The notes below the pieces were generated by a model. It saw only the letters and a list, made by a program, of their open reading frames with translations, was not told where the DNA came from and made no database searches. From Pedobacter planticolens (lineage in GTDB: Bacteria; Bacteroidota; Bacteroidia; Sphingobacteriales; Sphingobacteriaceae): a stretch of DNA of 64,000 nucleotides. Location of the stretch: positions 186,001 through 250,000 of the forward strand of contig NZ_WNXD01000002.1 of the NCBI RefSeq assembly GCF_014172375.1, given 5' to 3'. Positions 31,960 to 56,226 of the stretch are shown piece by piece (position 1 is the first letter of the stretch; each line of letters opens with the position of its first letter). Made by a program: the position numbers and the translations under genes.

Positions 31960-32886
31960 CTATCTCAACGCCCGGAACATCTGGTCGATGCACTTTTTCT
32001 TCTGCTCGTGGTTAGGATGCACATATAGGTTCAGCGTGGTGGTAATATTCGAATGCCCCAGAAGCACGCTCACGGTCTTATAATCGCACCTGCTTTCGAT
32101 GCACCGCGTCGCAAAACTGTGGCGCAGCCCGTGGAACTTCAGCCTTGGCATCTTCAGCTCTTCCATCATTTTCATGTAGTAGCTCCGGTAGGTACGCGGC
32201 TCGGTCGGTCTGGCCTCGTTGGTCAGCACAAAAAACGAGCTGTTCACGATCTTTTTCATCGGCTTGAGCATCCGAAGCAGATCCTTTCCCATTGGGATAT
32301 CCCTGATGGAATTCTTGGTCTTTGGCGTATCGATCACCAGTTCGGTCCGCCGCTCCCCTTCGTCCACCACATAGATCCGCTGGATCGTCCGGCGCACCCT
32401 TATCACCCCCTGCTCGGTATCCACGTCCTCCCATTTCAGCGCACAGACCTCCCCGATCCGCATCCCAGCGCTCAGGCACATGAAGATCCCCAGATTGCGG
32501 AAGGTAAAATTGGCTTCGACATACCCCATTACTTTTTTCTGATCGGAACGGTTCAGCACCGCCACTTCGCTCTTTTCCCTATCGGTGGGATAAAGGATAT
32601 CAAAGGGCACATAGTCCAGCCACTTTCTCTTACCTGCAAACTTGAGCACCATGTTCAGCACGATCAGGATATCCTTGACCGACTTCTGGCCCAGTCCAGC
32701 GGCCAGTTTCTGGTGCACAAAGGCCTGCACATCGATCTCATTGAGCTCGGACCGATCGCCAAAGGCGGGGATGAGATGGTTTTCGATCAGCAGCGCATAG
32801 GCTGAAAAGCTAGAGGATTTGATGTACTGTTTTTTGTCGGTCTTCCACAATTGGATGATCTCGGAGATTGTTTTGTTCTTGTCCAT
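31960..32886 (-). CDS. Tyrosine recombinase associated with hsdS inversion
   Basis: 308 residues with the phage-integrase catalytic set: Arg in AGMRIGE (about 141), HGLRH (about 250-253), GHSN, and Tyr in LNLYVHP (about 285). An N-terminal SAM-like core-binding domain precedes it. It sits directly between hsdR and the two opposed hsdS sequences, which is the arrangement of dedicated hsdS-inverting recombinases in Bacteroidota. It is more likely the inversion enzyme than the ICE integrase. Confidence 0.88.
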   Translation of the reverse strand: MDKNKTISEIIQLWKTDKKQYIKSSSFSAYALLIENHLIPAFGDRSELNEIDVQAFVHQKLAAGLGQKSVKDILIVLNMVLKFAGKRKWLDYVPFDILYPTDREKSEVAVLNRSDQKKVMGYVEANFTFRNLGIFMCLSAGMRIGEVCALKWEDVDTEQGVIRVRRTIQRIYVVDEGERRTELVIDTPKTKNSIRDIPMGKDLLRMLKPMKKIVNSSFFVLTNEARPTEPRTYRSYYMKMMEELKMPRLKFHGLRHSFATRCIESRCDYKTVSVLLGHSNITTTLNLYVHPNHEQKKKCIDQMFRALR

Positions 32887-32940
32887 AATCTGTTAAGGGT
32901 TAAAACCCGAAAGTTAAGAACAATGCAATTCCCACATCCT

Positions 32941-32962
32941 CAATGTTCCGAATTTGAGATTT
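32941..32962 (+). repeat. hsdS inversion repeat IR1, left copy
   Basis: 22 bp beginning CAATGTTCCGAATTTG; an exact inverted copy is at 35349-35370. It encodes the NVPNLRF start of the HsdS conserved region, and recombination between the copies would exchange the whole hsdS body. Confidence 0.9.
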
Positions 32963-34138
32963 ACGGGCTTTAGTTCAGATTGGAGCAAACTAAGTTTAGA
33001 AGAAATCGGCGAGTTTAAAAATGGTATTAATAAGTCAAGTGATGACTTTGGCCATGGAGTGCCCTTTATAAACTTAATGGACGTGTTCGGAAAACCAACT
33101 ATTTATTTTGGGAAGCATTTTGGGTTAGTAAATGCAAACAAAAAGGAAATTGACGCATATGAATTGAGAAAAGGTGATGTATTATTCATTAGATCTTCGG
33201 TGAAAAAATCAGGTGTTGGAGAAACCTCTGTTATTATGGAAGATTTGCCAAAAACAGTCTATAGTGGCTTTTTAATAAGATTTAGAGATACAAAAATTAA
33301 AATTGACCTCAATTATAAGAAATATTGTTTTTGCAATCCAAAATTTCGGAATGACCTGATTTCATTAAGTTCTACAAGTGCGAATACTAATATAAATCAA
33401 GAATCTCTGAACTCTTTAAATATATACCTTCCTCAGGATGCGGAGCAGGCAAAAATTTCTCATTTTCTATCCCTTATCGATATAAGAATCGACACCCAAA
33501 GCAAAATAATTAAGAAGTTAGAATCCTCAATCATAAAGCTAGGTGAAATGCTCTTTGACCAAAAAATTAGATTTCCTAGAATAAATGGACACTGGAAAGA
33601 GACAACTTTAAACCAAGAATGTGTGATTAATCCGAAATCACCACCTTTAGAAGAAGAGTTTGGATATATAGACCTTGAATCAGTAGCAAAGGGTGTTCTT
33701 CAAAAAAAACAATTCCTTAAAAAGATTGAAGCTCCGAGTAGAGCAGCAAGAGTTCTACAAAATTTAGATATTATTTTTCAATGTGTTAGGCCCTATCAGA
33801 TGAATAACTTAATCTATATTTCTGAAGATAATCGACAGTGGGTTGCTTCAACAGGGTATGCTCAGATAAGAGCGAATGGTAGCACCACCTTTATGTATTA
33901 TTTATTAAACCAGCCAAAATTCAACAAACAAGTTATGATTCGCTGCACTGGAACAAGTTATCCAGCAATATCAGCAAATGATCTTGGTAAAATAAATATT
34001 AAAGTATGTTCAAAATTAGAGCAAGAAAAAATCGGTCAGACACTGTTCTTGATGGATCAAAAACTAAGAACTGAAAAATTAATTTTGGAAAAATATAACT
34101 CACAGAAAAAATATTTTCTAACCAATTTGTTTATATAA
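32954..34138 (+). pseudogene. hsdS: Silent inverted hsdS cassette
   Basis: The frame encodes an HsdS-type subunit (two target-recognition domains, TRD, and LxxIDxRIxTQSKIIKKLE conserved helices), 394 residues from the TTG at 32954; the frame stays open to 32918 with no ATG. It lacks the N-terminal leader of the expressed copy, so it is probably not translated in this orientation. Its 3' end overlaps the convergent expressed hsdS by 8 bp. Variable parts are strongly AT-rich and differ from those of the other copy, while the conserved helices are shared. Read as a donor cassette for inversion, not as decay. Confidence 0.75.
33494..33516 (+). repeat. hsdS inversion repeat IR2, left copy
   Basis: 23 bp beginning ACCCAAAGCAAAATAATT; an exact inverted copy is at 34783-34805. 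It lies in the conserved central helix between the two target-recognition domains, so recombination here would exchange only TRD2. Confidence 0.9.
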
Positions 34139-35408
34139 ATAAATTTCTAATTAAAAACTCTTTCTGGCTACTATACATTGCCAGAGTTTTTTTTTCAACC
34201 TCAATCTTATCGTTAATTAAAGTGAGAAATTTAGCAATCAATTCTTGCTCATTAATTTCGGGAAGAACGATGGGCATTTCAAAGAAATCATGACTTGAAA
34301 AGCCCATTCTATCTGATCTCGCGCCAAAATTAGCGATTTCAGCCATATGCCGATGCCATATTTCGGTTTTAAAAAACTGTTCAATAAAATCTACATTTTC
34401 GTTAAAAAATCTGAAGACCGTATATAATGGAGACATGATACCTGTACCGATTTTATTTCTTGATATTGGACCGACCGGTGCTTCTTTTGATATTCTGGGG
34501 TTATAAACAAAGTCATTGCGTTCAACAATGTAATATCCGCTTATGTTATTCTTATTTGCTATGTCACGCTCAAAAAAATCTCGTTGATTGACTATGCCCT
34601 GTACTGCAGAATTAGTAAATACAGATGTAATTTTTGAATCCTTATTTTTAAAAATGCATTTCTGTGAAAGATCTTTCAATTTTTCAGTTCTCCACTGCTG
34701 AACATCAATTCCTTTTATACTTTTAAATCGATATGTTCTTGAAAATATACTATCGCGGAGCAGTCGCATTTGAGATTCTAAATTCTTAATTATTTTGCTT
34801 TGGGTTTCTATGCGCTCATCAATTAAAGATATAAAAGATGCAATTTTATTCTGCTCATTGATTTGTGGAAAAGAGATCATAAATTTGGAAATTTCGCTCA
34901 CAGTCAATTGAGGTTGCGCACTTCCAAAAGATACCATCGATATTATGTTCTGTAATTGTTTTGAATTAAAATATTTATATAAATATTCTGATTGCACTTT
35001 ATTTTGACCACATCTTATCAAAACCATTCCAGAATTTATCCGCAAATTCTCAAATGGAATTGATGCGTCATAATAACAAACATGGCCAATCGATCCACGA
35101 GTGGTTAATACAAGGTCTGATCTCATTAACTTTCCTTTCCGCAATGATTCATCTTTTTGTTTTGTGATGAAACTTTTTTCAGAAAATGAAAAACCGAGTT
35201 TTGTTACGTTCTTTGCATTCAAAAACAAGCAATAACCTTCATCTGAAAAATCACCTCCATTAGGGTAATTTTTACCCCTATCTCCATCAATAATTTTAAT
35301 ATCCAGATTTTCTAATCTATCTAACTCCCATTCGCCGTCAAACCCGTGAAATCTCAAATTCGGAACATTGCTTTTATTTTTTCTCGTTTCTTCCATTGCA
35401 GTATTCAA
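34131..35408 (-). CDS. hsdS: Type I restriction specificity subunit S, expressed copy
   Basis: 425 residues with the start MNTAMEETRKNKSNVPNLRF, two target-recognition domains and two conserved helices (IDERIETQSKIIKNLE at the centre; a similar one near the C-terminus). It is downstream of hsdM with a 31-bp gap and thus expressed in the hsdMS order. It sets the target DNA sequence for both methylation and restriction. TRD DNA is AT-rich relative to hsdM. Contains the inverted copies of IR1 and IR2. Confidence 0.92.
   Translation of the reverse strand: MNTAMEETRKNKSNVPNLRFHGFDGEWELDRLENLDIKIIDGDRGKNYPNGGDFSDEGYCLFLNAKNVTKLGFSFSEKSFITKQKDESLRKGKLMRSDLVLTTRGSIGHVCYYDASIPFENLRINSGMVLIRCGQNKVQSEYLYKYFNSKQLQNIISMVSFGSAQPQLTVSEISKFMISFPQINEQNKIASFISLIDERIETQSKIIKNLESQMRLLRDSIFSRTYRFKSIKGIDVQQWRTEKLKDLSQKCIFKNKDSKITSVFTNSAVQGIVNQRDFFERDIANKNNISGYYIVERNDFVYNPRISKEAPVGPISRNKIGTGIMSPLYTVFRFFNENVDFIEQFFKTEIWHRHMAEIANFGARSDRMGFSSHDFFEMPIVLPEINEQELIAKFLTLINDKIEVEKKTLAMYSSQKEFLIRNLFI
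34783..34805 (-). repeat. hsdS inversion repeat IR2, right copy
   Basis: Exact reverse complement of 33494-33516, inside the central conserved helix of the expressed hsdS. Confidence 0.9.
35349..35370 (-). repeat. hsdS inversion repeat IR1, right copy
   Basis: Exact reverse complement of 32941-32962, at the 5' end of the expressed hsdS just after the leader codons. Confidence 0.9.
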
Positions 35409-35439
35409 TATCTCTTTAGATTACATTAAGGATTTCCAA

Positions 35440-37026
35440 TTAAAAAACTAGGCCTAATTCCTTGAAATAAACATCAATCTCCTTATCTAACTCCGCTCTT
35501 TTAATTTCAAGCTCTTTTATTTCCGCCATTACAGCATGTATATCGACTTCCTCTTCTGCCTCAAAGGTCTCTACGTACCTTGAGATGTTCAAATTATAAT
35601 CGTTTTCTTCTATTTCTTTTAATGATGCACTGTAACTATACTTTTCAATAACCGTTCTGTTACGATAAGTGTCGACAACTTTATCAATATGTTCATCACG
35701 GAGCATATTCTGCGTCTTCACCTTTTCAAATTCCTTGCTCGCATCTATAAAAAGTACATCATTAGGACTTTCCTTGCATTTCTTGAAAACAAGAATGCAA
35801 GTTGGAATACTCGTACCATAAAAAATATTTGCAGGCAATCCTATTACAGCATCTAAATAATTGTTCTTTTCTATCAGGTGTTTTCGAATATGCTGTTCTG
35901 CTGCTCCTCTAAAAAGCACACCATGTGGAAGGACAATCGCCATGATTCCATTATCGGACAAATGATGCACCATATGCTGTACAAATGCAAAATCTGCCTT
36001 ACTTCCAGGGGCAAGTTTACCATATTGACTGAAACGGTCATCGCTGAGATGCAGAGGATTAGCACTCCATTGCGCAGAAAATGGCGGATTAGCCACGATT
36101 GCTTCAAACTGGTGTCCCACATGCTGTGGATATTCCAAGGTATCTTCAGATTTGATATCAAACTGCCTGTAATGAACACCGTGCAAGATCATGTTCATCC
36201 TAGCTAAATTGTACGTTGTGCGGTTCATTTCCTGACCGTAGAACATGGCTACGTCCTTCACCTCTCTAGCAACGCGCAACAATAGCGATCCCGAACCACA
36301 TGTCGGATCGTAGACCGATTTTAGCTTGTGCTTACCTGTTGTTACGATTTTGGCCAATATTTTTGATACTTCTTGAGGTGTATAAAACTCACCCGCCTTT
36401 TTACCAGCACCACTTGCAAATTGGCCGATAAGGTATTCATAAGCATCGCCCAGTACGTCAAGCTCTGTATGTTCCAGTTTAAAATCGATCTTATCCAAAT
36501 GGTTTAGCACCTTAGAAATGATCGCATTCCTTGCTTCTGCAGATTTGCCAAGCTTTGTACTGTTGAGGTCCATATCCTCGAACAGGTTATCAAAATCTTC
36601 TTCGCTTTCTGTACCCATTGTACTCAACTGGATATTGGTCAGCACTTTCTGCAGGTCTCCAAGAATGAAATTGGTCTTAGCCTCCTCAAATGCAGTTTCA
36701 TCTTCGTTATTTCCCTTGCCACGTCTTGCAAGTTCACTGAACAATTCCTCTGGCTTTAGAAAATAGCCAAGTTTTTGTAATGCTTCTTCCCGGATCACTT
36801 CAATGGATTCCTCAAAATCAGCCATCTTTGGAGACATCTCTTTAAACTTGATCTTGTCCTGTTTCAGGATCTCATTGGCAAAAATCTCCATCTTCTCGCT
36901 CAAGTACTTGTAAAAGATGAACCCTAAAATGTAGTCGCGGAATTCGTCCGCATTCATTTTTCCCCTAAGCGTATTGGCTATATTCCAGAGCTGCTGCTCT
37001 AAAATCTTTTTTTGGTCTTCTGACAT
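35440..37026 (-). CDS. hsdM: Type I restriction methyltransferase subunit M
   Basis: 528 residues. N-terminal helical HsdM_N, SAM-binding motif DPTCGSGSLL, catalytic NPPF (N6-adenine methyltransferase), C-terminal coiled coil (EIKELEIKRAELDKEID). Full length. First gene of the hsd operon; with HsdS it methylates host DNA and forms the restriction complex with HsdR. A 184-bp gap lies upstream. Confidence 0.95.
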   Translation of the reverse strand: MSEDQKKILEQQLWNIANTLRGKMNADEFRDYILGFIFYKYLSEKMEIFANEILKQDKIKFKEMSPKMADFEESIEVIREEALQKLGYFLKPEELFSELARRGKGNNEDETAFEEAKTNFILGDLQKVLTNIQLSTMGTESEEDFDNLFEDMDLNSTKLGKSAEARNAIISKVLNHLDKIDFKLEHTELDVLGDAYEYLIGQFASGAGKKAGEFYTPQEVSKILAKIVTTGKHKLKSVYDPTCGSGSLLLRVAREVKDVAMFYGQEMNRTTYNLARMNMILHGVHYRQFDIKSEDTLEYPQHVGHQFEAIVANPPFSAQWSANPLHLSDDRFSQYGKLAPGSKADFAFVQHMVHHLSDNGIMAIVLPHGVLFRGAAEQHIRKHLIEKNNYLDAVIGLPANIFYGTSIPTCILVFKKCKESPNDVLFIDASKEFEKVKTQNMLRDEHIDKVVDTYRNRTVIEKYSYSASLKEIEENDYNLNISRYVETFEAEEEVDIHAVMAEIKELEIKRAELDKEIDVYFKELGLVF

Positions 37027-37210
37027 TATAACTGTTTAATAGGGGCATTTCCCCGCAAGTAAAACTATTAAATACTATTAACTTAAAAAAATCGAAATAG
37101 CACCTATAAGATTAGCACAAACCTCATTAAGGATTACACACTATTGAATTCAAAATGCCTGAAATGCAACCTAGATTTATATACTATGGCCACTTAGCCA
37201 TAAAATATAA

Positions 37211-38872
37211 TCAAGAATTGGATCTAAAGAGAGTTATCAGGCCAATTAGATCGTCAAAATCCTGCATGTTTGGATTTGCAGTACCCGTATGCGCGATATC
37301 ATTTCGCTTCTTGACCAGATCGGCAACTTTCCTCAGCTCCACATTCCCCTGGCCAAACTTAAATGCGATCACAAATGAAATATTTCCAAGGGCAGAATCT
37401 TTATATGGGTTTTTTAACCCCACAGCTTTCTCAAAATAATTTCCATTTATAGCATCCTGATGAAAAACTAACTGATAATCGAGCCCGATTTTAATGCATA
37501 CCGTAACCCCGTTAAGGTCAACAACCGATACCGGGGAACCTGAGATAACAGATTTGGCGTACAGTTCTATTATTTGAAAGAGGCTCAAAAATGCACTTTT
37601 TCTCAGGTCAAGTTTTAAAAGCGTGAAGAATTCATCCAGTGCGAGGGCCGAAAAAGCCATAAAATCCACAAGAGTATTTACAGTTTGGGCCTTGGCATTT
37701 TCCTTCGCAACATATAGCTGTCTTAAATGTACCTTGGCAAAACACTCCAGCACCTGTGCCTTAAAGCTGTTATAGTTTTCAAGACTCAAATGATCCGGCA
37801 TCAGATATTCTGGGGATTCTTTGATATAGTAACCATCCGCACCAAGCTTTTGCAGGTCACGCATATTCCATGCCTTATTGGAGGCAGTAAAGATAATTAC
37901 CTGCACCCCTTCATTGCCCATCTTTATCTCCTTCAGGATTTTTGTGCCACTATAACTTGCAATTGGAAGAATATGCCCGCCCAAATCCTCTTTAAGCGGC
38001 AAAAGGCGAAGGTCGAGCAGGATAAGGTCCCAATCCATGGCCAGTTTGCTGCTGATCTCGGCAAAGAAATCCGCTTCCGAAAGATGCTCCCCAGTAATGG
38101 CGGCAAGAGTACCTCCATGGAATGCCTTACCCAATGCAGCTGTCCAGCCCTTGTATCCTTCATCGTCAATATAAAGAATTTTCTTTCCGGTAGCAGGTAT
38201 CAGATTTGGCCCGGTCCCTATAGCAGCAGCGGGCGATCCAAGACTAATCAATTTCGATCTGTTTTTTGCTGACAGGTACTTAAAGAATAAAGAGCTTCGT
38301 TTTGCATAAGCAGGAGATGATGGGAGTAGGCTAGCAAGGTTGGCAACCTTATCGAACTGGATAACTCCCCATTCATTTGCCAGCGAATGTGGGCCCATCG
38401 TTTCCGAACCTTTAATAATTAGATTATTAAGTACTTTTGACCCAAAATCATTTTTGTCCGCTGGTCTGATATGAGTTAGGTGGGCTGCAATTTCTTCTAC
38501 ATCCTGTCCAACAAGCACACTGCCCTGGGTCGCCGCAATCAATGAATAACGGTTATCCTGATCTAGAAGTAGCGTTTCAAGAGACCGATCCGAGATAAAG
38601 ATAATTGGCACCAGGTATTTTTCACCAATATTCTGGCTAAGCCGTATGTGCAGCCCGATACGGATACCAATGTTATTATCAGAATTTTCCCCAAGAGATG
38701 TTGGGATCAGTAACCTCTCCACTTTTTTATCTTTTAGATTTTCCGTTACGAACCTATCGATCTCAATATCATCACGTAAATCATAGTAGTCGATCGGAGT
38801 GATCTTCAATTCAGAAATTACCTTTTTTGTAAAAGCGTTTTCGCTATCATTAATTATAAATGTTGACTCCAT
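37211..38872 (-). CDS. Receiver-HEPN-like effector of the retron operon
   Basis: 553 residues. Residues about 1-230 look like a pseudo-receiver (VPIIFISD, GSVLVGQD). Residues about 233-360 form a complete response-regulator receiver: KILYIDDE (235-238), LLDLR with the phosphoacceptor Asp about 287, FTAS, and YIKES with Lys about 351. After a helical region, the C-terminus has KRNDIAHTG, i.e. R523 and H528, the Rx4H motif of HEPN ribonucleases. Overlaps the preceding gene by 23 bp and ends the operon that starts with the RT. I infer an RNase effector gated by receiver domains; no kinase is nearby. Family as a whole not recognised. Confidence 0.6.
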   Translation of the reverse strand: MESTFIINDSENAFTKKVISELKITPIDYYDLRDDIEIDRFVTENLKDKKVERLLIPTSLGENSDNNIGIRIGLHIRLSQNIGEKYLVPIIFISDRSLETLLLDQDNRYSLIAATQGSVLVGQDVEEIAAHLTHIRPADKNDFGSKVLNNLIIKGSETMGPHSLANEWGVIQFDKVANLASLLPSSPAYAKRSSLFFKYLSAKNRSKLISLGSPAAAIGTGPNLIPATGKKILYIDDEGYKGWTAALGKAFHGGTLAAITGEHLSEADFFAEISSKLAMDWDLILLDLRLLPLKEDLGGHILPIASYSGTKILKEIKMGNEGVQVIIFTASNKAWNMRDLQKLGADGYYIKESPEYLMPDHLSLENYNSFKAQVLECFAKVHLRQLYVAKENAKAQTVNTLVDFMAFSALALDEFFTLLKLDLRKSAFLSLFQIIELYAKSVISGSPVSVVDLNGVTVCIKIGLDYQLVFHQDAINGNYFEKAVGLKNPYKDSALGNISFVIAFKFGQGNVELRKVADLVKKRNDIAHTGTANPNMQDFDDLIGLITLFRSNS

Positions 38873-39515
38873 ATTTGTTTACAGCATTAATGATTTTTTC
38901 TAAGTACTTCAAAAAAGCATGCATTTCCAGTTCCGCAAATGCTTTCGCCACCTTGTCCTTTGAGTTGCAGAGTTCAGCAAATCTGATCACAAGCAACTCT
39001 ACTTTCTTCCTTTGACCTTCTAATTCTCCGCTATTGATGACACTTGCAATCCTGCTGTACAAAAACAGCAATTCTTTATAAATAAAGTTCTTACCATATA
39101 TCAAAATGCGAAGTTCGATACGCTGTTCCTCTACAAAATTATCCAAAAAATCCTTTAGATTTCTGTACATGAGCCGCTTGTTCATTCCTGTAATAGAACT
39201 CGATTTGACAGCGGTATATTCGATTTCGATAAATCCGTTGCTGAAGATGACGATTGGGATATTTTTTTCACGAGCTAATCCCCTAACCTTCTCCGCCACT
39301 GCTGTATTCCCAAGTTGCACCTGTCCAGCAGCATTGAAATCGGGGAAAGATTCATGCAGAAGGATGCAGGATGCATTTTCAAAGCGTGAAATATCATCAA
39401 CAGCAGTTAATATATATACCGGTTCCAAGATATGGTTATACGTTTTTGCTTGCAAATAATCGCATCCATATTCTTTCTGCTGGGACCTTCGGTTGTCATC
39501 GATCAGATAAATCAT
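38850..39515 (-). CDS. Receiver-like partner protein of the retron operon
   Basis: 221 residues. The N-terminal half has receiver-like order: MIYLIDDN, then CILLHESFPDF where the phosphoacceptor Asp position appears changed to His/Glu, then IPIVIFSNG. The C-terminal half is helical (LRILIYGKNFIYKELL and a Lys-rich helix). It starts 1 bp after the RT stop, so it is translated from the same mRNA. Probably a pseudo-receiver that pairs with the larger protein; role unknown. Confidence 0.55.
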   Translation of the reverse strand: MIYLIDDNRRSQQKEYGCDYLQAKTYNHILEPVYILTAVDDISRFENASCILLHESFPDFNAAGQVQLGNTAVAEKVRGLAREKNIPIVIFSNGFIEIEYTAVKSSSITGMNKRLMYRNLKDFLDNFVEEQRIELRILIYGKNFIYKELLFLYSRIASVINSGELEGQRKKVELLVIRFAELCNSKDKVAKAFAELEMHAFLKYLEKIINAVNKYGVNIYN

Positions 39516-41546
39516 CTAATAGAAAGATAAGGTATGCGTGAAACCATAGACTGCGTCTTCATCAACGCTCATTTTGCTAGGTGAGCCCGGATTATCATCC
39601 AACACCTTCAAGGTATAATTGCCGTCAGAAAAACTGGAAGTAATTGACCAGTTACAGAGGCCCTTAAAAGCTCTTGCTACTTCTCGGAAATTGCCGTTCA
39701 TCAAATCGACGATATTAGCATCTCTGTGGCATTTGGAGCGAATGTGTGTAATTTCAAGGATTTTCATGTTATGATTACCGAAAATTTGCCGCTTAAATTC
39801 GATCCTAATTCTTTTCGAGACATCAACTCTTTCGAGGATACCATCCAAAATATGCCTTACCCCTCCCAGAAAAATATCTACATCAGTAAAAAACTCTGCA
39901 CTCTCTAAATTGATCAGTTCGATCTCGAAGTTTTGGAACTCTTCTCCAAACTTCTCCTCCAAGGTTTGCACAACAGCCTGGTGCAACATTGGCGCCCTGA
40001 ACTGTATGCTTTCCTTAAATGGACGTATAAACTGGTCCCGAAAGACCTTCATCCGGATAGGATGGACACCCGGATTATCAGCTATCCATTCTTTGAGTTC
40101 CGGAGAGCCCCAGCCAACATTGATATCTATTTTTTTGCCATTTTCCCATCGCCACCATTTTGGCCTTCTTTCAAAGCAAAAATGCTTTGCCCGGGCGTAT
40201 AGGGATCGCGTAATGGAATAGCTCCTGAACGCACCATTAAACTCCCTTCCGGCAAGGTCCATGATTTTATCGTATTGAAATTCTCTTCCCGGAAGATCAT
40301 AATCGTGTGTCAGGTACTTTAAGCCTTCACCATGCTGGAAAAGCCGTAGAAAGGTTGCTACATCAACTGGACGATGTTCTTCAAAGACCTCACTAGAGGT
40401 TGGATTAAGATTAGCGTGTTTTCTTGTCGATAAACTGCCACTTAGTTTTTTAAACCGCTGCGCCAATTTGACATAAGTGCTATCATCCTCACCCTTTACC
40501 ATTTTCAGGAAATTGAGCCTACCATCAAGAGTATCTAACAGCGACTTTGATTCCGGGTAATAGTAGTCTATTCCCTGATCTGCATAATATTTTCCCTGGG
40601 CATTTGGATAGCCATATTTTTCCCAATAATATAGGTACATTCTTACAGCCTTGATGAACTTTTGTTCTACATTAATCTTTTTGTTCACGACCAAGCCCGT
40701 GACTTCCTGTCTTTGGGACATGTGTTGTAACCTGGTCTTGGATTCATTGATCGAAAATTTCTGCTCAATGATTATTTTTTTGAGCTCCTGTAGAAAGGAT
40801 GAGCTTTGACCAAAAACCATTCTATTAGAGGAAAATGTAATGTCATCGGCATATCTGGAATAGGTGATGCCAAATCGTTTAGCTAATCCGGTGAGCTTTA
40901 TGTCCAAATTTAGGCAGACTACATTCGATAATAGCGGCGAAGTCGGGGCGCCTTGAGGTAGTACACGAACTTCTTTGCTGCTTTGGGTTCCCTGACCAGG
41001 CATTGCCAAATCCATTTTCATAGTGCACAATCTCACTATTTCTTGCCCTAGAAGGGATTTTTTGCCTTTAAACCCAAAAGGAGCATTTTCAAGGGCTGAA
41101 ATGAGCATAACATCGTCAATTGATGTGAAAAAATCCTTTAAATCAATGTTGAAAACGTAATGCTGGTTTACATGCAATGAAGCGTTCTGTACAATGGAAC
41201 CATTCTTTCTAAAGCCAAAGGCATTTGGATGCGCTTCGAATACACACGATAATACTACATTAACAAGTCGTTGAAAAAATTTAAGCGGTGCGACAGGCGC
41301 GTTAATTAACCTGTCCTTTCCAGACGATTTTCTGACCGTAAAGCTATGATAGTTTTCCCTGCTATCGGTGATGTGGAAATTCTTTAGTCTTTCCTTAAAC
41401 CGATGAGTTTCGCTGTTGCTTATCGGTAGACATTCTATAGCACGCATCAGTAGGTCAAAAAAATCCTTCTTTGTAGCGACTTCTTGGAACTTTGCCTTTA
41501 ATTCAGAGCGGTGCTCCTCGGCCATCTGCTTAAATGGACTATTCAC
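39516..41546 (-). CDS. Retron-type reverse transcriptase with C-terminal extension
   Basis: 676 residues. Residues about 30-320 form a retron RT: the X-region motif NAxxH (NASLH, 121-125), NIDLKDFFTSID (motif A), PQGAPTSP (motif B), catalytic YADD (232-235) and the retron VTG triplet (VTGLVVN, 282-288). Both the NAxxH and VTG signatures are typical of retrons, not of group II introns or DGRs. Residues about 350-676 are an extra domain that I do not recognise; most retron RTs are about 320 residues. It starts 17 bp after the candidate msr-msd RNA and is followed without gap by the two receiver-like genes. Confidence 0.88.
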   Translation of the reverse strand: MNSPFKQMAEEHRSELKAKFQEVATKKDFFDLLMRAIECLPISNSETHRFKERLKNFHITDSRENYHSFTVRKSSGKDRLINAPVAPLKFFQRLVNVVLSCVFEAHPNAFGFRKNGSIVQNASLHVNQHYVFNIDLKDFFTSIDDVMLISALENAPFGFKGKKSLLGQEIVRLCTMKMDLAMPGQGTQSSKEVRVLPQGAPTSPLLSNVVCLNLDIKLTGLAKRFGITYSRYADDITFSSNRMVFGQSSSFLQELKKIIIEQKFSINESKTRLQHMSQRQEVTGLVVNKKINVEQKFIKAVRMYLYYWEKYGYPNAQGKYYADQGIDYYYPESKSLLDTLDGRLNFLKMVKGEDDSTYVKLAQRFKKLSGSLSTRKHANLNPTSSEVFEEHRPVDVATFLRLFQHGEGLKYLTHDYDLPGREFQYDKIMDLAGREFNGAFRSYSITRSLYARAKHFCFERRPKWWRWENGKKIDINVGWGSPELKEWIADNPGVHPIRMKVFRDQFIRPFKESIQFRAPMLHQAVVQTLEEKFGEEFQNFEIELINLESAEFFTDVDIFLGGVRHILDGILERVDVSKRIRIEFKRQIFGNHNMKILEITHIRSKCHRDANIVDLMNGNFREVARAFKGLCNWSITSSFSDGNYTLKVLDDNPGSPSKMSVDEDAVYGFTHTLSFY

Positions 41547-41562
41547 ATGGATTTAGATAAAA

Positions 41563-41715
41563 AGGGCCTGCAAAATTCAATATATCAAACAAAATAGTAA
41601 CAAGATGTATCTCAATAGTATATATAACCGTTCTCCCCAAGAAAACTTGGCTGGTATGCCGATCATTGGTTTAATGAAAAACCCAGCATAAAGATTCAAT
41701 TTCTTAGCAGGCCCT
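41563..41715 (-). ncRNA. Candidate retron msr-msd RNA
   Basis: AGGGCCTGC occurs at the 5' end (41715-41707, minus strand) and its exact complement GCAGGCCCT at the 3' end (41571-41563), the layout of retron a1/a2 repeats. Between them are an msr-like pair of hairpins: TATGC...GCATA (+41655-41659 / 41686-41690) enclosing GGTTT-AATGAA-AAACC, and CCAAG-AAAA-CTTGG (+41637-41650). The remaining AT-rich part (41572-41630) would be the msd; its stem is weak by eye. The RNA lies just upstream of the RT gene on the same strand, as expected. The boundaries come from the repeats alone. Confidence 0.65.
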
Positions 41716-41723
41716 ATTAAATT

Positions 41724-41731
41724 CAAATATA
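41724..41731 (-). promoter_or_regulatory. -7 box of the retron promoter
   Basis: TATATTTG on the minus strand is an exact match to the Bacteroidota -7 consensus TAnnTTTG and lies 9 bases before the a1 repeat, placing the transcription start at the 5' end of the candidate msr. A TTTG lies only 13 bases upstream, so the -33 box is not well defined. Confidence 0.55.
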
Positions 41732-41922
41732 ATAAAACTAAACTCAAATTTAGTGTACATTATTTATCCAACTTGGTTTGGCAACGATATGGTATAATAT
41801 TTTGTTCTAAATCCTCCGCACATGATTTGTCGGATAGGGTATATCTCTTTGTATTCTGGATATTCCTTGTTTTAACCAGTGAATTTTTAGAAATTGCGTT
41901 GATGGACTAATTTAAATTTGTG

Positions 41923-42489
41923 ATGAAAAAAACTACAATGGAGGATTTCAGACTGATGGACAGGATCATGCTCGACCTTCATCAAAAAAGAAAATCAGTC
42001 ATGGATTTTGAAGCGGAATTGCCACTTCGTCACGATGATATTGACTACTGCCTGGACGAACTCGAAAATATGGGCCTGGCAGAAAAGATCTTCGAAGACG
42101 GCGGCGGAACCTACCAGCTCACTGTGGACGGGAAAAGGTTCATCAAAAATGGAACTTTTGAGCAAAAGGCGCAACGAGAGGAAGTGAAAGTGGTCGAATC
42201 AAGGAATTTAGCCCAGCAGGAAAGTGAAAGAAAAGAAATAGAGTTCAATTGGAAGGCAAAAGACGAAAAGCGAAAAAACACAACGCTATTGTTTTCCTTT
42301 GTTCTACTTTGTTTTGGCGCTTGGAACATCTATCTTCAGACAGCCAATTCCAACAGGTTTCAACAAACAAACGATGAGGTTGATAGTATCAAAACCTTAG
42401 CTGAACAATCAAAAAAACGAATTGATTTACTTACAGAACAGCTTGAAACTGCAAATCGGTCTCGGACCAGTCCCGAAAAACACCGTTAG
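41923..42489 (+). CDS. Winged-helix protein with one membrane helix and coiled coil
   Basis: 188 residues from ATG 41923 (an in-frame GTG at 41920 gives one more residue). Residues about 1-75 look like a winged helix (LPLRHDDIDYCLDELENMGLA, YQLTVDGKRFI). Then a charged linker, one transmembrane helix (TTLLFSFVLLCFGAWNIYL) and a C-terminal coiled coil (SIKTLAEQSKKRIDLLTEQL). No family recognised. Divergent from the retron and convergent with the P63C gene. Confidence 0.6.
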   Translation: MKKTTMEDFRLMDRIMLDLHQKRKSVMDFEAELPLRHDDIDYCLDELENMGLAEKIFEDGGGTYQLTVDGKRFIKNGTFEQKAQREEVKVVESRNLAQQESERKEIEFNWKAKDEKRKNTTLLFSFVLLCFGAWNIYLQTANSNRFQQTNDEVDSIKTLAEQSKKRIDLLTEQLETANRSRTSPEKHR

Positions 42490-42517
42490 TATGTATTGTG
42501 ACCAAATTGCATCTACA

Positions 42518-43153
42518 CTAAGCTTGATCGGGATAAAGCTTCACTACTTTTACAGGTTTAACCTCTACACATTTTAATTGCATGGGCAAATTGTATTCTT
42601 TGGTGTACTTCAATTCAAAGTCGTACCAATCTTTTGACTCTTGCATCATCGCAATCGCCTGTTGAATGTACGTTTCCAATAGCCGCAATCCATCAGCATT
42701 AAGGAACTGGAACAGCTTGTATTTCTTAATGTAGCCGCTGACCAAGGGATTCTCCTTTAATAACAGCGTCGGAAGCACTTCTTGGGCAAATCGCGCATAG
42801 ATATACTTCTTGATATAAATGGCAACCACTGGTGGTTTAATGAACGCGTTGGCATCCAGGTTGTCCCATCCGCACAATTTGAACATCAACTTGAAAAACG
42901 GAATGCTGTTTGGAAACATTGGGTAGTATGCTCCTGCCAGTTCGCTGATGACGTCCTTAACCTCCCTGATCGTGAACTCCAGACCGCTGCGCAACTGGTG
43001 TTTCTCCAGTTCGATATCAAACGACTTTTGGGGCAAAAGTGCATCCGCTCCAAAAAGTAGCCGTTGCTGTTCTTCTCTGTCCAGGGTCCTTTTAAGCTCC
43101 TTGTCAACCGCGTTTTCTCCGCTGGTTGTCTTTTTTTTATCCTTCATAATCAA
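42518..43153 (-). CDS. P63C-domain protein
   Basis: 211 residues. Residues about 65-185 match the P63C domain by FPNSIPFFKLMFKLCGW, KPPVVAIYIKKYIYARFA, a VLPTLL stretch and ESKDWYDFE. P63C domains occur in phage and mobile-element regulatory proteins. The start ATG overlaps the end of the ImmA-like gene by 4 bp (ATGA), so it is a coupled partner. An alternative start lies at 43147. Likely a DNA-linked regulator; no activity shown. Confidence 0.7.
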   Translation of the reverse strand: MIMKDKKKTTSGENAVDKELKRTLDREEQQRLLFGADALLPQKSFDIELEKHQLRSGLEFTIREVKDVISELAGAYYPMFPNSIPFFKLMFKLCGWDNLDANAFIKPPVVAIYIKKYIYARFAQEVLPTLLLKENPLVSGYIKKYKLFQFLNADGLRLLETYIQQAIAMMQESKDWYDFELKYTKEYNLPMQLKCVEVKPVKVVKLYPDQA

Positions 43154-44364
43154 ATTGTATAAATGTCCACGTTCCTTTTGTTAGATATTTTCGGAACAGG
43201 GCTAAATTTCGAAAATTCACTGGTATTAAACCTTTCCAGCACCAGGTCAAAATTTGGCATAAACTTATTGAACCTTGCATAATCAGAGTCCTTAGCAGTG
43301 TCCCAGCAGTAAAAAGTATAGATAATACTAGGATGAACATGATTTTGTTCGGCATAGGCCTTTACAAATTTCGCATCGGAAATATGGGATTTCACAACAT
43401 CCATCTTCTGATCGGCAAATAAATATTGCCTAGCGAAATTATCGGCCTCAGGCTCACTGATATGGATCGATTCCGTTTCTCCTGTAATATGATACTTTTC
43501 GTTCCTGATTTCTTCCCAGTCATACAAAACATGAAAGAGTTCGTGCAGCAATGCAAACCACATGCTGCCATAGAATGCAGTATATTTTGTAAGCACGATG
43601 CACGGCTTGTCCCTATATTTCATTGTTGCTCCGCGAAGATGGAGATCAGTGGTAAACTTTGGAACTACAATCAAGGTTACACCGAACTTGAACAGTGCCT
43701 GTGCTACCAGCAGCAAACCTCTTTCTACGTTCATTGAATGCCACCTGATCTGCGGAAAATACTCGATCAGTCCCTCCCGGTCATATTGATAGGGATTAGG
43801 TGTTTTGTCCAAGCTCTGACAGGCAGCTGCATACCAGAAACTCAAGTTTTCCTTATTCGTACTCCTTTTGCCGCTACTGAATGCCGCGGTAACCCGATGC
43901 TTGTTGTGGTCGAACACGGATTCGTACCCAAAGAAAGTCACAATTGCTTTTTCGATATGCTCAAAATCATTGATACTATTAATGAACCCAATCTTCTTTA
44001 AGCTGGTCAAATTGAAATTATTGACAATAAAGCTCCGCTTTTTAGCCGCTGTAATGCTTTCATGATGGATGTCATGGACCAGCTTGAAGTATTTATTAAT
44101 GATCTCCTCTACGGATATCTCCAGAAAATCTGACAGTTTTAGAATGGTAACAAAATCGACCTTTTTTGCATCGCCAGAAAGTATGGAGCTCAACGTCTTA
44201 TGATCAATATCCAGAATATTCTGCGCATGGTGCTTGGTGATGTTCAAGTACTCAAGCCTCTGTTCGAACAACTCCTGCAAAGGGTAATAGTTGACCTTGG
44301 AGTCCTCCGTAAAGATCCTATTCAAAAGTCTATCGATATCCGAGTGTCTGTTTTTATTGTCCAT
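43150..44364 (-). CDS. HTH-ImmA/IrrE metallopeptidase
   Basis: 404 residues. The N-terminus has a helix-turn-helix (ITKHHAQNILDIDHKTLSSI), followed by a long middle region and a COG2856/ImmA-type zinc protease: HELFH (residues about 273-277) and the third-ligand region EPEADNFA. Such proteins cleave repressors (ImmA/ImmR in ICEBs1; IrrE). Co-transcribed with the P63C protein. May control cargo or excision genes; the target is unknown. Confidence 0.85.
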   Translation of the reverse strand: MDNKNRHSDIDRLLNRIFTEDSKVNYYPLQELFEQRLEYLNITKHHAQNILDIDHKTLSSILSGDAKKVDFVTILKLSDFLEISVEEIINKYFKLVHDIHHESITAAKKRSFIVNNFNLTSLKKIGFINSINDFEHIEKAIVTFFGYESVFDHNKHRVTAAFSSGKRSTNKENLSFWYAAACQSLDKTPNPYQYDREGLIEYFPQIRWHSMNVERGLLLVAQALFKFGVTLIVVPKFTTDLHLRGATMKYRDKPCIVLTKYTAFYGSMWFALLHELFHVLYDWEEIRNEKYHITGETESIHISEPEADNFARQYLFADQKMDVVKSHISDAKFVKAYAEQNHVHPSIIYTFYCWDTAKDSDYARFNKFMPNFDLVLERFNTSEFSKFSPVPKISNKRNVDIYTI

Positions 44365-44429
44365 GTAGTATCAGGCGTTTTCCCCTAACAAATATATAAC
44401 AAAATATGCTGATAAAAGCAATAAAAAAC

Positions 44430-44457
44430 AAAGTCGGGCGAAAATGCCCGACTTTTT
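44430..44457. terminator. Strong terminator in a divergent intergenic region
   Basis: AAAGTCGGGC, a GAAAAT loop, GCCCGACTTTTT: a 10-bp stem with a T-run on the + strand and a T-rich end on the minus strand. It lies between two divergently oriented genes (44364 minus, 44681 plus), where no terminator is needed, so a short transcript may end here. The rest of 44365-44680 has only the small dyad listed next. Confidence 0.7.
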
Positions 44458-44621
44458 ATCCACATTTAAATCTAAGCAGCTGGAAAGAATGAACATGATG
44501 CCCAAACACAAGGCCCATCCATGGCAAGCAAAACATTGAGGGCTCAACGTGAAGTTTGAGTTCAGAATATTGTAAACCGTAAATTATTGATGGAATAAAT
44601 AACTATCTTAGCTTAAACACC

Positions 44622-44640
44622 TTGATGTCCAATACATCAA
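44622..44640. promoter_or_regulatory. Dyad upstream of the 44.7-kb operon
   Basis: TTGATGT and ACATCAA (44622-44628, 44634-44640) flank 5 bases, about 40 bp before the ATG of the first gene. Possible operator; short and unproven. Confidence 0.3.
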
Positions 44641-44680
44641 TACTGTTTGACCAAATAAATTAACCCTCAAACCAAATCAG

Positions 44681-45727
44681 ATGGATATTATTTTTAATGC
44701 GCTGTATAAAATAGACGTCGCGGCCAAAGCGACCCAAAAACTACCCCATACCGAGGAGCAAAAAGAACTAGAGAGCTACGTCCGAGAACTTTTGGACCTC
44801 ATTGTAGATGAGAAAAGCAGTAGGGGCTATGAATTTACCAGTGAACACACCGAAGTTCGATCGTTGATCTCAGAAATCATTGGCACCCAATATACAGATC
44901 TTTCAACTCAGGAAGGGTTCGCCGAATCAATCGCAAAACGTTTGCTGGCCAAGGAGATCGATGCTGAAGAAAATAACAATCTCAATATCAAATTGGTAAA
45001 AGGGATAGCCGTGATCACCCTGATTCAGTTGAGCAATGGTGAACGCAGGTTTGTCATTTCCAAGGCTGATTACAATGAATACCTAGATGCAGAAAGCTAC
45101 AAGAGAAGAAATGGGTTCCCGTTAAAGAAGAAAATCTACAAAGCATTCAGTGCAGCGCTGGATGAAGAAAACAACATATCCAAGATCCTTGTATATGACA
45201 CCAACTCTACCTTTTCTGTGTATTGGTGGAGGGAATTTCTAGAGCTATCTGAAATTTATACCGATGATTACAATACTGAAAAAGTATTTGCAGCAATCGA
45301 GGGCAATGTGCTCAATCCCATCAAACAGAAACACAAGGCAGATTTTATCAGTCTGTGGAATGCCGCTGTCCATTATTTCAGGGTAAAGCCAGAATTTACA
45401 GTAGAAGGTTTTTTGGACGACATCATTAACACCTATGAGCCCTTCGACAGCAGCTTGGATGTTGGAAGTTTAGCAAAGAAAGTCGAAAAGCAGTTCGAAA
45501 ATGGGAAATTTGATAAGCACTTCAAGATCGTCCCTAAGGTGATTACAAAAAAATTCAAACGTACCATACAGCTTACCAGCCAGATCGATCTTAACCTGAA
45601 AGATGGTATCCAGAATATCGAGCAGGTCATCAAGAGGTTTCAGGATAAGGACGGCTCCAAATGGGTAATGGTTCGTTCGGCGGAAGGGTATGAATATTTC
45701 AAGGACCAAACCGAGCTTTTATCGTAA
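44681..45727 (+). CDS. Nucleoid-associated (NdpA-like) hypothetical protein
   Basis: 348 residues, no signal peptide. Overall order (N-terminal EExKELESYVRELL helices, central GERRFVISKADYNEYLD beta region, a VYWWREFLEL segment, C-terminal FKRTIQLTSQIDLNL) resembles the 37-kDa nucleoid-associated NdpA/NA37 family that recurs in defence loci, but similarity is weak by eye. The stop TAA overlaps the next start (TAATG), making a tight operon. Confidence 0.45.
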   Translation: MDIIFNALYKIDVAAKATQKLPHTEEQKELESYVRELLDLIVDEKSSRGYEFTSEHTEVRSLISEIIGTQYTDLSTQEGFAESIAKRLLAKEIDAEENNNLNIKLVKGIAVITLIQLSNGERRFVISKADYNEYLDAESYKRRNGFPLKKKIYKAFSAALDEENNISKILVYDTNSTFSVYWWREFLELSEIYTDDYNTEKVFAAIEGNVLNPIKQKHKADFISLWNAAVHYFRVKPEFTVEGFLDDIINTYEPFDSSLDVGSLAKKVEKQFENGKFDKHFKIVPKVITKKFKRTIQLTSQIDLNLKDGIQNIEQVIKRFQDKDGSKWVMVRSAEGYEYFKDQTELLS

Positions 45728-53059: not shown

Positions 53060-54112
53060 CTATTTTCTGCTATTGTCTCGTAACAGAATGGGTAGATCGT
53101 CTTTCAGTTTCACTTTCACCACACGAACCCTTTTAGACAACAGCGATTTTGCCGCATCGATCCCTGCGCCAGCAAGCTCACCGCCAACACCTTCCATACC
53201 ATACATTGAAACCCCACTAATGCCATCGGCGGCACCCATTGCTGCTGCATTACGAAATACTGCATCAGGCGCATCAATCCCAGGCATTCCATCCAGCGAA
53301 TACACCGAAAGATCAACTGGAATAATTTGGCTTCCCAAACGCACGTTCTTAATATCTAACAGCAAACGCTGATTGGTAATCTTGCACAAGCCAAAAAGCA
53401 GGTGCCCCTTCGGGATCATTACCCCAGAAAGCAGCACCGAATCGGTCAACCTCAATTTCACCGCAGCGCCCTGCACCACCTTTTGGTTACCATCGATCAC
53501 CGCAGTTATCGCAGAAAACTTTTCCAGATCCTGACCGGAATAAATCCTGCCCAAAACCTTCTGCTGCGCCCGAACAGGGTTCTGGATGTCCAGTATCTTT
53601 TCCAGTACCGAATTCATTTGTTCCATTTCGGGGTCTTTCTGTTTGCCCTCCTGCATGGATTTCATCATCTGTTCTAATCGGTCGACATCGGTTTTTATAC
53701 CTGCATCGTTTTGTTTTGGGGCTTGGGTATAAGCTGGGCTTTTGCCTCCGCCGACATTAACAGGAGGTGAATTAATTTCCTTGTTCAACGCTTCCAATTT
53801 GGCATTGATCTCGGAAGTCTTTTCATCCTCTGCACCAAATCCCAGCTTGCCCGCAATCCCCGAAACACTATTTTCAGCCGAAGTATCCTTTCCAGCCTTG
53901 GCATAAAACCCCATCTTATCTACTGGTTCTTCCGCCTTAAAATTCGCGTCCGGCAAAGCGGTATTGATTCCCTTGCTAGCAAGCAAAGGATCAACCACCT
54001 GTCCACGACCGCCACTCAACGCATAGAACGCCAGCGCCATAAAGGGCAAAAGCATCAGCGGCAGCACCAAAAGGATTTTCCTTTTGTCCCTTGTTTTTTT
54101 AATTGTTTCCAT
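53060..54112 (-). CDS. traM: Conjugative transposon protein TraM
   Basis: 350 residues. N-terminal single membrane helix (KILLVLPLMLLPFMALAFYAL), a long linker (KAEEPVDKMGFYAK; AEINAKLEALNKEINSPP), and a C-terminal beta domain (LTDSVLLSGVMIPKGHLLFGL, VPVDLSVYSLDG type). This is the Bacteroidota TraM of the type IV secretion-like channel, VirB10-like in layout. In the tra operon with traL and traK. Confidence 0.9.
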   Translation of the reverse strand: METIKKTRDKRKILLVLPLMLLPFMALAFYALSGGRGQVVDPLLASKGINTALPDANFKAEEPVDKMGFYAKAGKDTSAENSVSGIAGKLGFGAEDEKTSEINAKLEALNKEINSPPVNVGGGKSPAYTQAPKQNDAGIKTDVDRLEQMMKSMQEGKQKDPEMEQMNSVLEKILDIQNPVRAQQKVLGRIYSGQDLEKFSAITAVIDGNQKVVQGAAVKLRLTDSVLLSGVMIPKGHLLFGLCKITNQRLLLDIKNVRLGSQIIPVDLSVYSLDGMPGIDAPDAVFRNAAAMGAADGISGVSMYGMEGVGGELAGAGIDAAKSLLSKRVRVVKVKLKDDLPILLRDNSRK

Positions 54113-54138
54113 AAAAATTGATTTGTGTAAATAATCGA

Positions 54139-54366
54139 TTATCTAAATAGGCTACTCACCAGCCATAGGCAATAGCCTCCGAATAGCAATCCTAATCCAG
54201 CCATCACTAGCAAGATCGTCTTCGAATCATATTTTTTAGCCTTTGCATTCAGCTTTGCTGATAACGAAGTCTGCCATTTAAGAATCCATCCAGCGATCCG
54301 CTCAGCCACCGCATCAAAAGACCTATCTCCAGCCTCTTCTTTGCTTTTTCTCTTGAACCATCCCAT
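54139..54366 (-). CDS. traL: TraL-like small membrane protein
   Basis: 75 residues with one membrane helix near the C-terminus (TILLVMAGLGLLFGGYCLWLV) and a charged N-terminus. The position between traK and traM and the single-TM layout match TraL (DUF3989) of Bacteroidota conjugative transposons. Confidence 0.65.
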   Translation of the reverse strand: MGWFKRKSKEEAGDRSFDAVAERIAGWILKWQTSLSAKLNAKAKKYDSKTILLVMAGLGLLFGGYCLWLVSSLFR

Positions 54367-54369
54367 AGC

Positions 54370-54981
54370 TTACGGTTTTACCACATCTGAATTCTCCAAC
54401 GTCTCCCAGCGCTGGATCAAAAACCCGTGCGGATTGTTGTCCGAACGCGACACGTTGCGCAAATAACCTTGGGTCACCAAACGACGAACCACAGTCGAAG
54501 TAGAGCGGACCAACTGCTGCGTCGCAAAACACTTGAAGTAATAGGGATAGACATCCAGATTGAGCTCCACCGAATCAACCGCAATCTCCTGGGAGATATT
54601 CGCCGAAATCAAATTGGTGAAATAGCCCTGCTCTTTCAGGTTATCATAACTTTTCTTTGCACTCTGATCGGCCAGATTCAGCGCCAACAGCATATTTCTT
54701 TGGATCACCTTTTCATCGGGATCGAGCGTAAAAAACCAGTGGTGGAACATTTTCACATGGTCACGGATTTCTACCCCAATGTTATCCTTGCGCTCTGCCG
54801 AAAATGCCTCGATTGCCTTACCATTAGCCAAAATATATACCTTGGCATTATTGGTGCTCACCATATCAAAGCTCTTATAGATCGCAAAGCCCGATACCAG
54901 TACGCAGGCAATAATCAGAAAAAGCGAAAAAGTCTTGATATGCTTAAAGGCGGTATCTATATTTTTAAATTGTGTAAACAT
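54370..54981 (-). CDS. traK: Conjugative transposon protein TraK
   Basis: 203 residues. N-terminal membrane helix (TFSLFLIIACVLVSGFAIY), then the TraK pattern VREHVKMFHHWFF-type segment (here IRDHVKMFHHWFFTLDPDE) and a beta region. VirB8-like inner-membrane component of the transfer channel. 3-bp gap to traL. Confidence 0.9.
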   Translation of the reverse strand: MFTQFKNIDTAFKHIKTFSLFLIIACVLVSGFAIYKSFDMVSTNNAKVYILANGKAIEAFSAERKDNIGVEIRDHVKMFHHWFFTLDPDEKVIQRNMLLALNLADQSAKKSYDNLKEQGYFTNLISANISQEIAVDSVELNLDVYPYYFKCFATQQLVRSTSTVVRRLVTQGYLRNVSRSDNNPHGFLIQRWETLENSDVVKP

Positions 54982-55004
54982 CTTTTTGAATTTTAAGTAA
55001 AAGC

Positions 55005-56210: not shown

Positions 56211-56226
56211 AATTTTCTAGTTTAAA

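Follow-up and report, generated by a model that had tools for sequence, protein, structure and literature searches.

Retrons are usually described as guard particles that hold a toxin. In the stretch of Pedobacter planticolens DNA analysed here (64,000 nucleotides, hereafter the window), a reverse transcriptase (RT) gene is preceded by a short segment bounded by an inverted repeat, and this raises two questions, i.e., whether the segment is the non-coding RNA (ncRNA) of a retron, and what the RT is joined to. A preliminary description, made from the letters of this DNA, had called the segment a retron ncRNA without giving its strand; we place it on the minus strand. By comparison with its relatives, and as far as sequence alone can establish this, 41563–41715 is a genuine retron RNA. 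The RT forms one protein with a histidine-kinase-like domain (RT-HK) and is followed by two further genes, partners which that description had missed and which are the unusual part, and the system is filed here as a retron, a variant whose partner set was not found among the literature matches listed. The features of the RNA and its surroundings are as follows.

41563–41715, minus strand (5′ end 41715, 3′ end 41563): retron ncRNA (msr-msd), from sequence, model search, covariation and arm reassignment
41707–41715, minus strand: a1 arm, from repeat search, shuffles and arm reassignment
41563–41571, minus strand: a2 arm, from repeat search, shuffles and arm reassignment
41724–41731, minus strand: TATATTTG, a Bacteroidota −7-like box (TAnnTTTG), 8 bases upstream of a1
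41697, minus strand: G of the conserved TTGA, predicted as the priming guanosine, where the extended a1/a2 stem has its inner end, placed by the rule given in the available part of PMC6868368
41655–41690, minus strand: msr hairpin SL1, with a lower stem of 7 bp, a 3′-side bulge and an upper stem, from fold and covariation
41637–41650, minus strand: msr hairpin SL2, placed by comparison
41626–41629, minus strand: GGTT element following SL2, with variants in some relatives, a possible msr/msd border (role inferred)
about 41572–41625, minus strand: predicted msd template, AT-rich and without a long hairpin, its borders inferred

The segment had been said to be bounded by exact repeats 153 bases apart in outer span and to end 17 bp ahead of the RT, and this is what we located: 41563–41571 reads AGGGCCTGC, 41707–41715 reads GCAGGCCCT, the outer span is 153 bases, and the end of a2 lies 17 positions from the GTG at 41546, with 16 bases between. 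Taken alone, the window repeat is weak evidence with a moderate chance level: when the 300 bases upstream in the window were shuffled with dinucleotides kept, 11 of 300 shuffles contained an exact inverted repeat that was 9 bp or longer, ended 4–25 positions ahead of the start and had a span of 80 or more. A repeat that is only moderately unlikely leaves room for a reading without any retron, in which the RT is of the Abi or DRT type and the repeat is a terminator or operator. Fold energy is undecided on the strand because the opposite strand scores better (z −3.64, none of 200 shuffles equally good) than 41556–41725 in the proposed orientation (z −2.0, 6 of 200), and the strand assignment rests on covariation and the RT. 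An Rfam search of 35000–45000 returned five matches (E 3.2–4.5), none of them at the ncRNA and none to a retron family.

The same genes were found in ten operons, the window included, the nine relatives being L021, L042, L040, L041, L043, L016, L017, L018 and L035. The operon is known from the window's own family, a Chitinophagales MAG (L016) and two Chryseobacterium plasmids (L018 and L035), and L017 lies on a faecal scaffold without annotation that is filed as phage. The DNA ahead of the RT could be read in nine of the ten loci (that of L041 is partly masked, and it was excluded from this count), and all nine RT-HK loci carry a locus-specific a1/a2 pair ahead of the RT. The pair is exact in eight, with a length of 9–13 bp and a distance of 7–21 positions from the RT start; in L040 it is bulged, and the start was set by comparison at a downstream TTG. 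For the eight exact cases, L040 being excluded, the repeat length observed was reached per 300 shuffles 11 times for the window, nine for L021, four for L017, three for L018, two for L043 and never for L016, L042 or L035. Across the nine loci the longest exact a1/a2 helix averaged 9.9 bp within loci vs 4.3 bp between them, and the observed pairing total was reached by 2 of 100,000 reassignments of the a2 arms; L018 and L035 are near-copies, and swapping their a2 arms also reaches that total. The preliminary description had stated that its reading would be refuted if the paired positions were not conserved in homologous loci. This test was run, and the pairing is conserved, with arms that vary yet match at each locus.

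The motif TAnnTTTG is the Bacteroidota −7 consensus, and the box that had been placed 9 bases before the segment is indeed present, at 41731–41724, with a spacing of 8 bases rather than nine. It occurs across the window at chance frequency (65 found vs 63 expected), and its placement carries weight only because the box recurs ahead of a1 in relatives. Judged by eye, it stands 4–9 bases ahead of a1 in L021, L042, L040 and L017, which with the window makes five of nine loci, and at 11 bases from a1 in L043; no TAnnTTTG was seen at the corresponding place in L016, L018 and L035. A separate box, GTTCTTTG, is by eye common to L016, L018, L035, L043 and L041, at a1 or directly upstream of it.

Inward of a1 the elements run in the order TTGA, SL1, SL2 and a GGTT-like element, and the msr-like hairpins that had been noticed inside the segment are supported, as SL1 and SL2, by covariation across loci. 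The minimum-energy fold of the window also contains SL1. It pairs the SL2 region differently, without SL2 as modelled, and SL2 therefore rests on comparison. In nine rows fitted to the model (the window, L021, L042, L040, L016, L035, L017 and the sister retrons L023 and L034, with L018 and L043 left out), 96.3% of cells are paired vs 68.9% in shuffled rows and at most 43.4% when slid, and 47 cells are double changes vs 14.5 shuffled; this alignment is biased towards the model by construction. MAFFT alignments of nine ncRNAs put SL1 wrongly in some rows, and no pair counts were taken from them. Four loci aligned by sequence only gave seven pairs with changes on both sides vs 2.5 shuffled, and 95.8% of cells paired vs at most 49.2% when slid.

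A covariance model (R1), trained on the four loci of this sequence-only alignment, was searched over 23 loci (324 kb). Outside the training sites its matches lie upstream of the RT or, in L041, where the RT frame begins (E 0.72), with three more elsewhere (E 1.8, 3.8 and 5). The RT-adjacent site was the only or best match in L016 (E 1.8e-6), L035 (E 0.0058) and L017 (E 0.062). Among the thirteen loci fetched via other RTs (L022–L034), only L034 (E 4.4e-7) and L023 (E 5.3e-7) fell below E 1, and L022 gave no match although it belongs to the same RT group. L018 and L043 escaped detection under default filters, but once these were switched off the best site in both was the one adjacent to the RT (single-locus E 4.3e-4 and 7.9e-3, respectively). 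When R1 was run under stricter filters on 300 genomes of the order, four places were matched at E ≤0.001, all of them training sites, and the RT-HK carriers G599 and G676 were not matched.

The operon's proteins bear on the first question as well as the second, and are encoded as follows.

39516–41546, minus strand: fusion of an RT with a HisKin-conflict domain, 676 aa, GTG start at 41546, from Pfam, PADLOC, PDB and motifs
38850–39515, minus strand: gene B, 221 aa, conserved partner, with D7 and H54 invariant in ten
37211–38872, minus strand: gene C, 553 aa, with iREC (PF22563), a receiver and a C-terminal HEPN-like domain, from Pfam and alignment

Pfam places RVT_1 at residues 71–285 of the fusion (E 3.4e-23) and HisKin-conflict (PF22561) at residues 390–676 (E 1.4e-72). 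The window RT is intact and carries NASLH, YADD and VTG, and the available part of PMC6868368 gives NAxxH (region X) and VTG (region Y) as retron RT motifs. YADD is present at all ten RT-HK loci, and NAxxH and VTG at nine; the RT of L017 has no NAxxH match and VCG in place of VTG. The best PADLOC models for the eight RT-HK RTs scanned were those of retron types XI, XII and I-C, and the best PDB relatives by sequence, for five RT-HK RTs, were Ec67 and then Ec86. In NCBIfam, Drt2, Drt3a and Drt4 reached at most 48 bits vs 193–254 bits for three retron models, all below cut-offs. These scores, the locus-specific a1/a2 pairs, the msr covariation and the retron motifs all count against an Abi- or DRT-type RT behind a terminator or operator, and we find that reading hardly credible. 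That the segment is a retron ncRNA, as had been claimed, is in turn supported by the a1/a2 pairing, the msr covariation and the motifs NAxxH, YADD and VTG.

Membership in types XI (RT-protease), XII (RT-TIR) or I-C (RT-Toprim, Ec67/Eco2) was ruled out, with only the RT part of these models matching in the window and no protease, TIR or Toprim domain found by Pfam in the window protein. The likeness consists in these being the best RT models and in the RT standing N-terminal to its partner; the window system differs in having a histidine-kinase-like domain together with B and an iREC-REC-HEPN-like protein, and also in its proposed priming context, TTGA.

The priming context and the msd fold are the weakest points of the retron assignment. 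In the part of PMC6868368 available to us, the priming guanosine lies in, or just after, the inner end of the msr stem part, usually in TAGC, with CAGA, CAGC, GAGC and ACGC as other contexts. TTGA is invariant in nine aligned RT-HK loci and stands at the expected priming place, yet it is not among the contexts given in that part of the source. The same portion describes the msd as one long stem of about 10–50 bp (PMC6868368), and a single long msd hairpin is not met with in the window's minimum-energy fold, where the predicted msd has two 4-bp stems (in L040 about 10 bp). We keep the retron assignment despite this fold because the msd borders are predicted only and the other features hold.

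As to the partners, the kinase-like domain keeps T24-H25 (domain numbering) in all ten copies. Neither an N-box Asn nor DxGxG was found by eye to be conserved across the ten aligned domains, which puts ATP use in doubt; judged from these residues, the domain may not use ATP. A sequence search of this domain against PDB gave nothing at E up to 1, and its AlphaFold model was unusably poor (pLDDT 43.0), and no fold comparison was drawn.

B and C lie directly downstream of RT-HK on the same strand. B resembles a receiver by eye only. Its profile comparison with C found nothing, its matches in PDB by sequence were weak only, and its AlphaFold model (pLDDT 47.6) was too poor for use; with a null comparison and a poor model, we do not claim B as a receiver. 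In C, the receiver residues D237, D287 and K351 and the HEPN-type R523 and H528 of an R(x4-5)H motif are invariant in ten of ten, and the last two fit the R(x4-6)H catalytic motif of HEPN RNases. In the window C, Pfam gives iREC at E 3.1e-20 and weak matches to Response_reg (E 0.0014) and HEPN (E 0.0019). Response_reg matches all ten C at E ≤0.0014, above cut-off only in L018 and L035, and iREC is matched in eight, not in these two. HEPN is matched in four (the window, L021, L040 and L042), always below cut-off (best E 6e-5; the best PF18735 match is 23.5 bits vs a curated cut-off of 28.4), with no Pfam HEPN match in the C of L041, L043, L017, L018 and L035 or in that of L016, which is partly masked. 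The C-terminal domain is called HEPN-like because its profile match stays below cut-off. A sequence search of C against PDB found nothing at E up to 0.01.

Whether these genes form one system with the retron depends on how they are distributed. PF22561 is rare: it was matched in 2 of the 395 genomes sampled from the phylum, 6 of 300 from the order and 3 of 145 from the genus (overlapping samples). It was matched in nine of the ten operons, and L035 was recognised only via the profile built here, in which L035 was itself included. Profiles of the kinase-like domain, B and C built from the ten loci match all ten source loci and, at E 0.01, none of the 22 further loci that had been fetched because of RT matches. 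A tblastn search with the RT-HK protein gave 55 phage and 642 plasmid records, and among the best matches listed at least one of each kind reached a coverage of at least 80% in one place; searches of viral contigs with the RT-HK protein, the C alignment, the RT-HK and C of L017 and the kinase-like protein of L016 found no relatives.

In a tree of 27 RTs, from which L041 was left out, the nine RT-HK RTs fall within a 13-row group together with L022, L023, L034 and the long-branched L057 (support 85/94, not starred), and a supported clade (100/99) unites the RTs of the window, L021, L042 and L040. The idea of a monophyletic new type was dropped, RT-HK not being one clade (4 changes; 0% of 200 bootstrap trees). 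The sister retrons L022, L023 and L034 share with the window the RT group and, by eye, a1/a2-like repeats upstream of the RT (for L022 and L034 a downstream ATG was assumed to be the true start, and the L034 contig stops within the RT), the msr model finding L023 and L034 only. L022 and L023 differ in that a gene of 261–263 aa after the RT takes the place of the kinase-like domain, B and C. The receiver-effector likewise occurs elsewhere: of 390 genomes sampled from the phylum, 5 contain iREC. Two of these are the window and G379, and in the other three no RT was seen by eye among the frames of the stretch read. L063 encodes a C-like protein (E 1.5e-33) with Response_reg at E 2.2e-9 and weak iREC and HEPN, next to a protein of 1181 aa in which kinase-like motifs were read by eye and Pfam matched nothing; L064 has a weak iREC match inside a 1360-aa protein, and in L065 a HATPase_c protein precedes a receiver protein with Rx4H (by eye). 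The RT-ncRNA unit and the receiver-effector unit are thus each found with other partners, and the C-like gene of L063 is consistent with a movable signalling effector. Profile comparisons of the kinase-like domain with the large L063 protein and of B with the small one found nothing, and for the former homology is not claimed.

The scatter of RT-HK copies through an RT group that has other partners, and the C-like gene without an RT in L063, could mean that the RT-ncRNA pair and the kinase-like/B/C genes are two systems lying side by side by chance. Against this, the RT and the kinase-like domain are one polypeptide in seven of ten operons (the window, L021, L042, L040, L041, L043 and L017) and adjacent genes in the other three (L016, L018 and L035), and all six order genomes with PF22561 have the domain in a frame of 673–812 aa that bears RT motifs. 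We regard a chance neighbourhood as very improbable.

The reading that we prefer, and consider rather probable without holding it to be settled, is that the RT-msDNA of a retron is joined to a kinase-like/B/receiver-HEPN-like module for phage defence. Comparison of sequences shows how the RNA is structured, that the RT has its motifs, that the operon has four parts and that receiver and HEPN-type residues are invariant. It is by inference only that msDNA is made, that a trigger acts, that the parts are coupled (with any phosphotransfer), that RNA is cut and that the operon serves defence. The RT would very probably prime on a guanosine near the a1/a2 stem and so make msDNA, and the resulting RT-msDNA particle would be joined to a divergent histidine-kinase domain rather than holding a simple toxin. 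This domain, together with gene B, would act on the receiver domain of C, which would be kept inactive in the uninfected cell. A phage product may then alter the particle and with it the interaction between the kinase-like domain and C, whether through transfer of phosphate or through docking and release, and the freed HEPN-like domain would cut RNA, such that growth stops before the phage spreads.

In its fuller form, which we put forward only tentatively, the RT-msDNA would be the sensory input of a two-component-like cascade that runs from the kinase-like domain to an HEPN RNase gated by a phospho-receiver. If this were true, reverse-transcribed DNA would control a protein phosphorylation switch. 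Phosphate transfer and docking seem to us about equally likely, and our best explanation can be sharpened in either direction. Under sequestration only, the kinase-like domain would serve as a pseudokinase scaffold; bound to the iREC/REC part of C, it would hold the HEPN-like domain of C inactive, and the trigger would break this complex with no phosphate moved. The lack, by eye, of a conserved N-box Asn or DxGxG in the ten copies fits this, as does retron-Kva2, which sequesters an HEPN RNase according to the available part of a preprint (PMC13405049), but the acidic residues, phospho-Asp and Lys of the C receiver, kept in ten of ten, would be needless for a mere docking surface. We see sequestration as a serious candidate, if one short of an even chance. 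Under a canonical phosphorelay, an active histidine kinase would phosphorylate D287 of C via its Thr-His (H25), with B as buffer or brake, as in Detocs. The invariant T24-H25, the retained receiver residues and the gene order of kinase-like domain, short protein and receiver-effector speak for it, but the usual ATP-binding motifs are unconserved (by eye), and B, if it were a receiver, which has not been shown, has His at the position of the receiver Asp. The relay can be entertained as a possibility and remains doubtful.

Returning to the preferred reading of a retron joined to a kinase-like/B/receiver-HEPN-like module, we infer, by analogy, that the operon may combine the principles of retron-HEPN and Detocs-like systems. 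The effector of DtcC in Detocs is an ATP nucleosidase. Detocs comprises the histidine-kinase protein DtcA, the phosphate-absorbing buffer DtcB and the response regulator DtcC, as described in the part of PMC11728103 available to us, and the likeness lies in one operon of a kinase-type protein, a second protein and a receiver-effector. Of this gene set, the kinase-like domain and the receiver-effector are present here and the second protein is not recognisable as a receiver; the window system also differs in that the sensor part is a retron RT, the effector is HEPN-like and B is without a shown phospho-acceptor. No Detocs-named family was among the PADLOC or NCBIfam matches listed for the window, and with no comparison to DtcA, DtcB or DtcC sequences we speak of a likeness to Detocs, not of membership. 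The likeness to type IX (retron-Kva2) is that a retron controls an HEPN RNase, which in Kva2 leads to tRNA cleavage and growth arrest (PMC13405049, preprint, available in part). As given there, the Kva2 HEPN and winged-helix proteins are separate. The Kva2 HEPN is without the canonical motif that C has here; the terms 'histidine kinase' and 'receiver' do not occur in the text of PMC13405049.

What is encoded here looks like an alarm against viruses in which two defence designs, as a rule treated separately, are united. A kinase-like and receiver module would make retron sensing amplifiable, bufferable or resettable, and the operons compared suggest that the sensors and effectors of two-component-like defence operons are swappable, a retron here standing where the sensor would. 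Besides, the operon is compact, and testable by single point mutants. The authors of Pfam knew both the kinase-like and the iREC domains and named the former for conflict contexts, and because of this part of the system may already be in print. A retron with this partner set was not found among the literature matches listed, which covered titles and abstracts and left outside subscription papers, supplements and the main classification and Detocs papers. Nor was such a retron found in the available passages of PMC7159879, PMC12548924, PMC8934634, PMC13092281, PMC11728103, PMC13405049, PMC12405507 and PMC6868368, and no such type was among the PADLOC 2023 matches listed. A figure legend on predicted defence systems in the available part of PMC13092281 abbreviates HATPase and REC, with no link to an RT seen in that part.

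Several other gene arrangements were observed among the loci compared. A divergent gene of 334–345 aa, WYL-regulator-like by eye, stands upstream of the RT in L016, L041, L043, L022 and L034. The post-RT proteins of L022 (4216–5007) and L023 (5073–5858) are without a convincing Pfam match, that of L022 also without a PADLOC match, and these proteins of 261–263 aa are candidate effectors of a further retron variant. The RT-less operon at 3279–11567 of L063 encodes the 1181-aa kinase-like protein (by eye), a protein of 243 aa, a 613-aa iREC-REC-HEPN-like protein and a 701-aa protein with a weak receiver match, and is possibly another two-component-like defence system. In L065 (4103–8555), a DNA methyltransferase-like gene (by eye), a HATPase_c protein and a receiver protein with Rx4H (by eye) stand in a row.

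Within the window, the retron operon has a type I RM system beside it, along with further genes that are candidates for a role in defence, and these neighbours speak for the preferred reading. Conjugative-transposon genes for TraM, TraJ and TraG are present at 53060–61526, and because of these it is probable that an integrative conjugative element carries the defence genes. Two hsdS genes (32954–34138, plus strand; 34131–35408, minus strand) are opposed beside a tyrosine recombinase gene (31960–32886, minus strand) in the region 31960–35408, with a 31-nt inverted repeat (87%) at 32941–32971 and 35340–35370, and the pair looks like a phase-variable, invertible one. The PADLOC candidate systems PDC-M27B/C and PDC-S27 were matched at 22935–27852 and 7333–8772, respectively, and at 42518–44364 a P63C-domain protein adjoins a PD-Lambda-2_B match (E 2.5e-23) with weak HTH and peptidase M78 matches.
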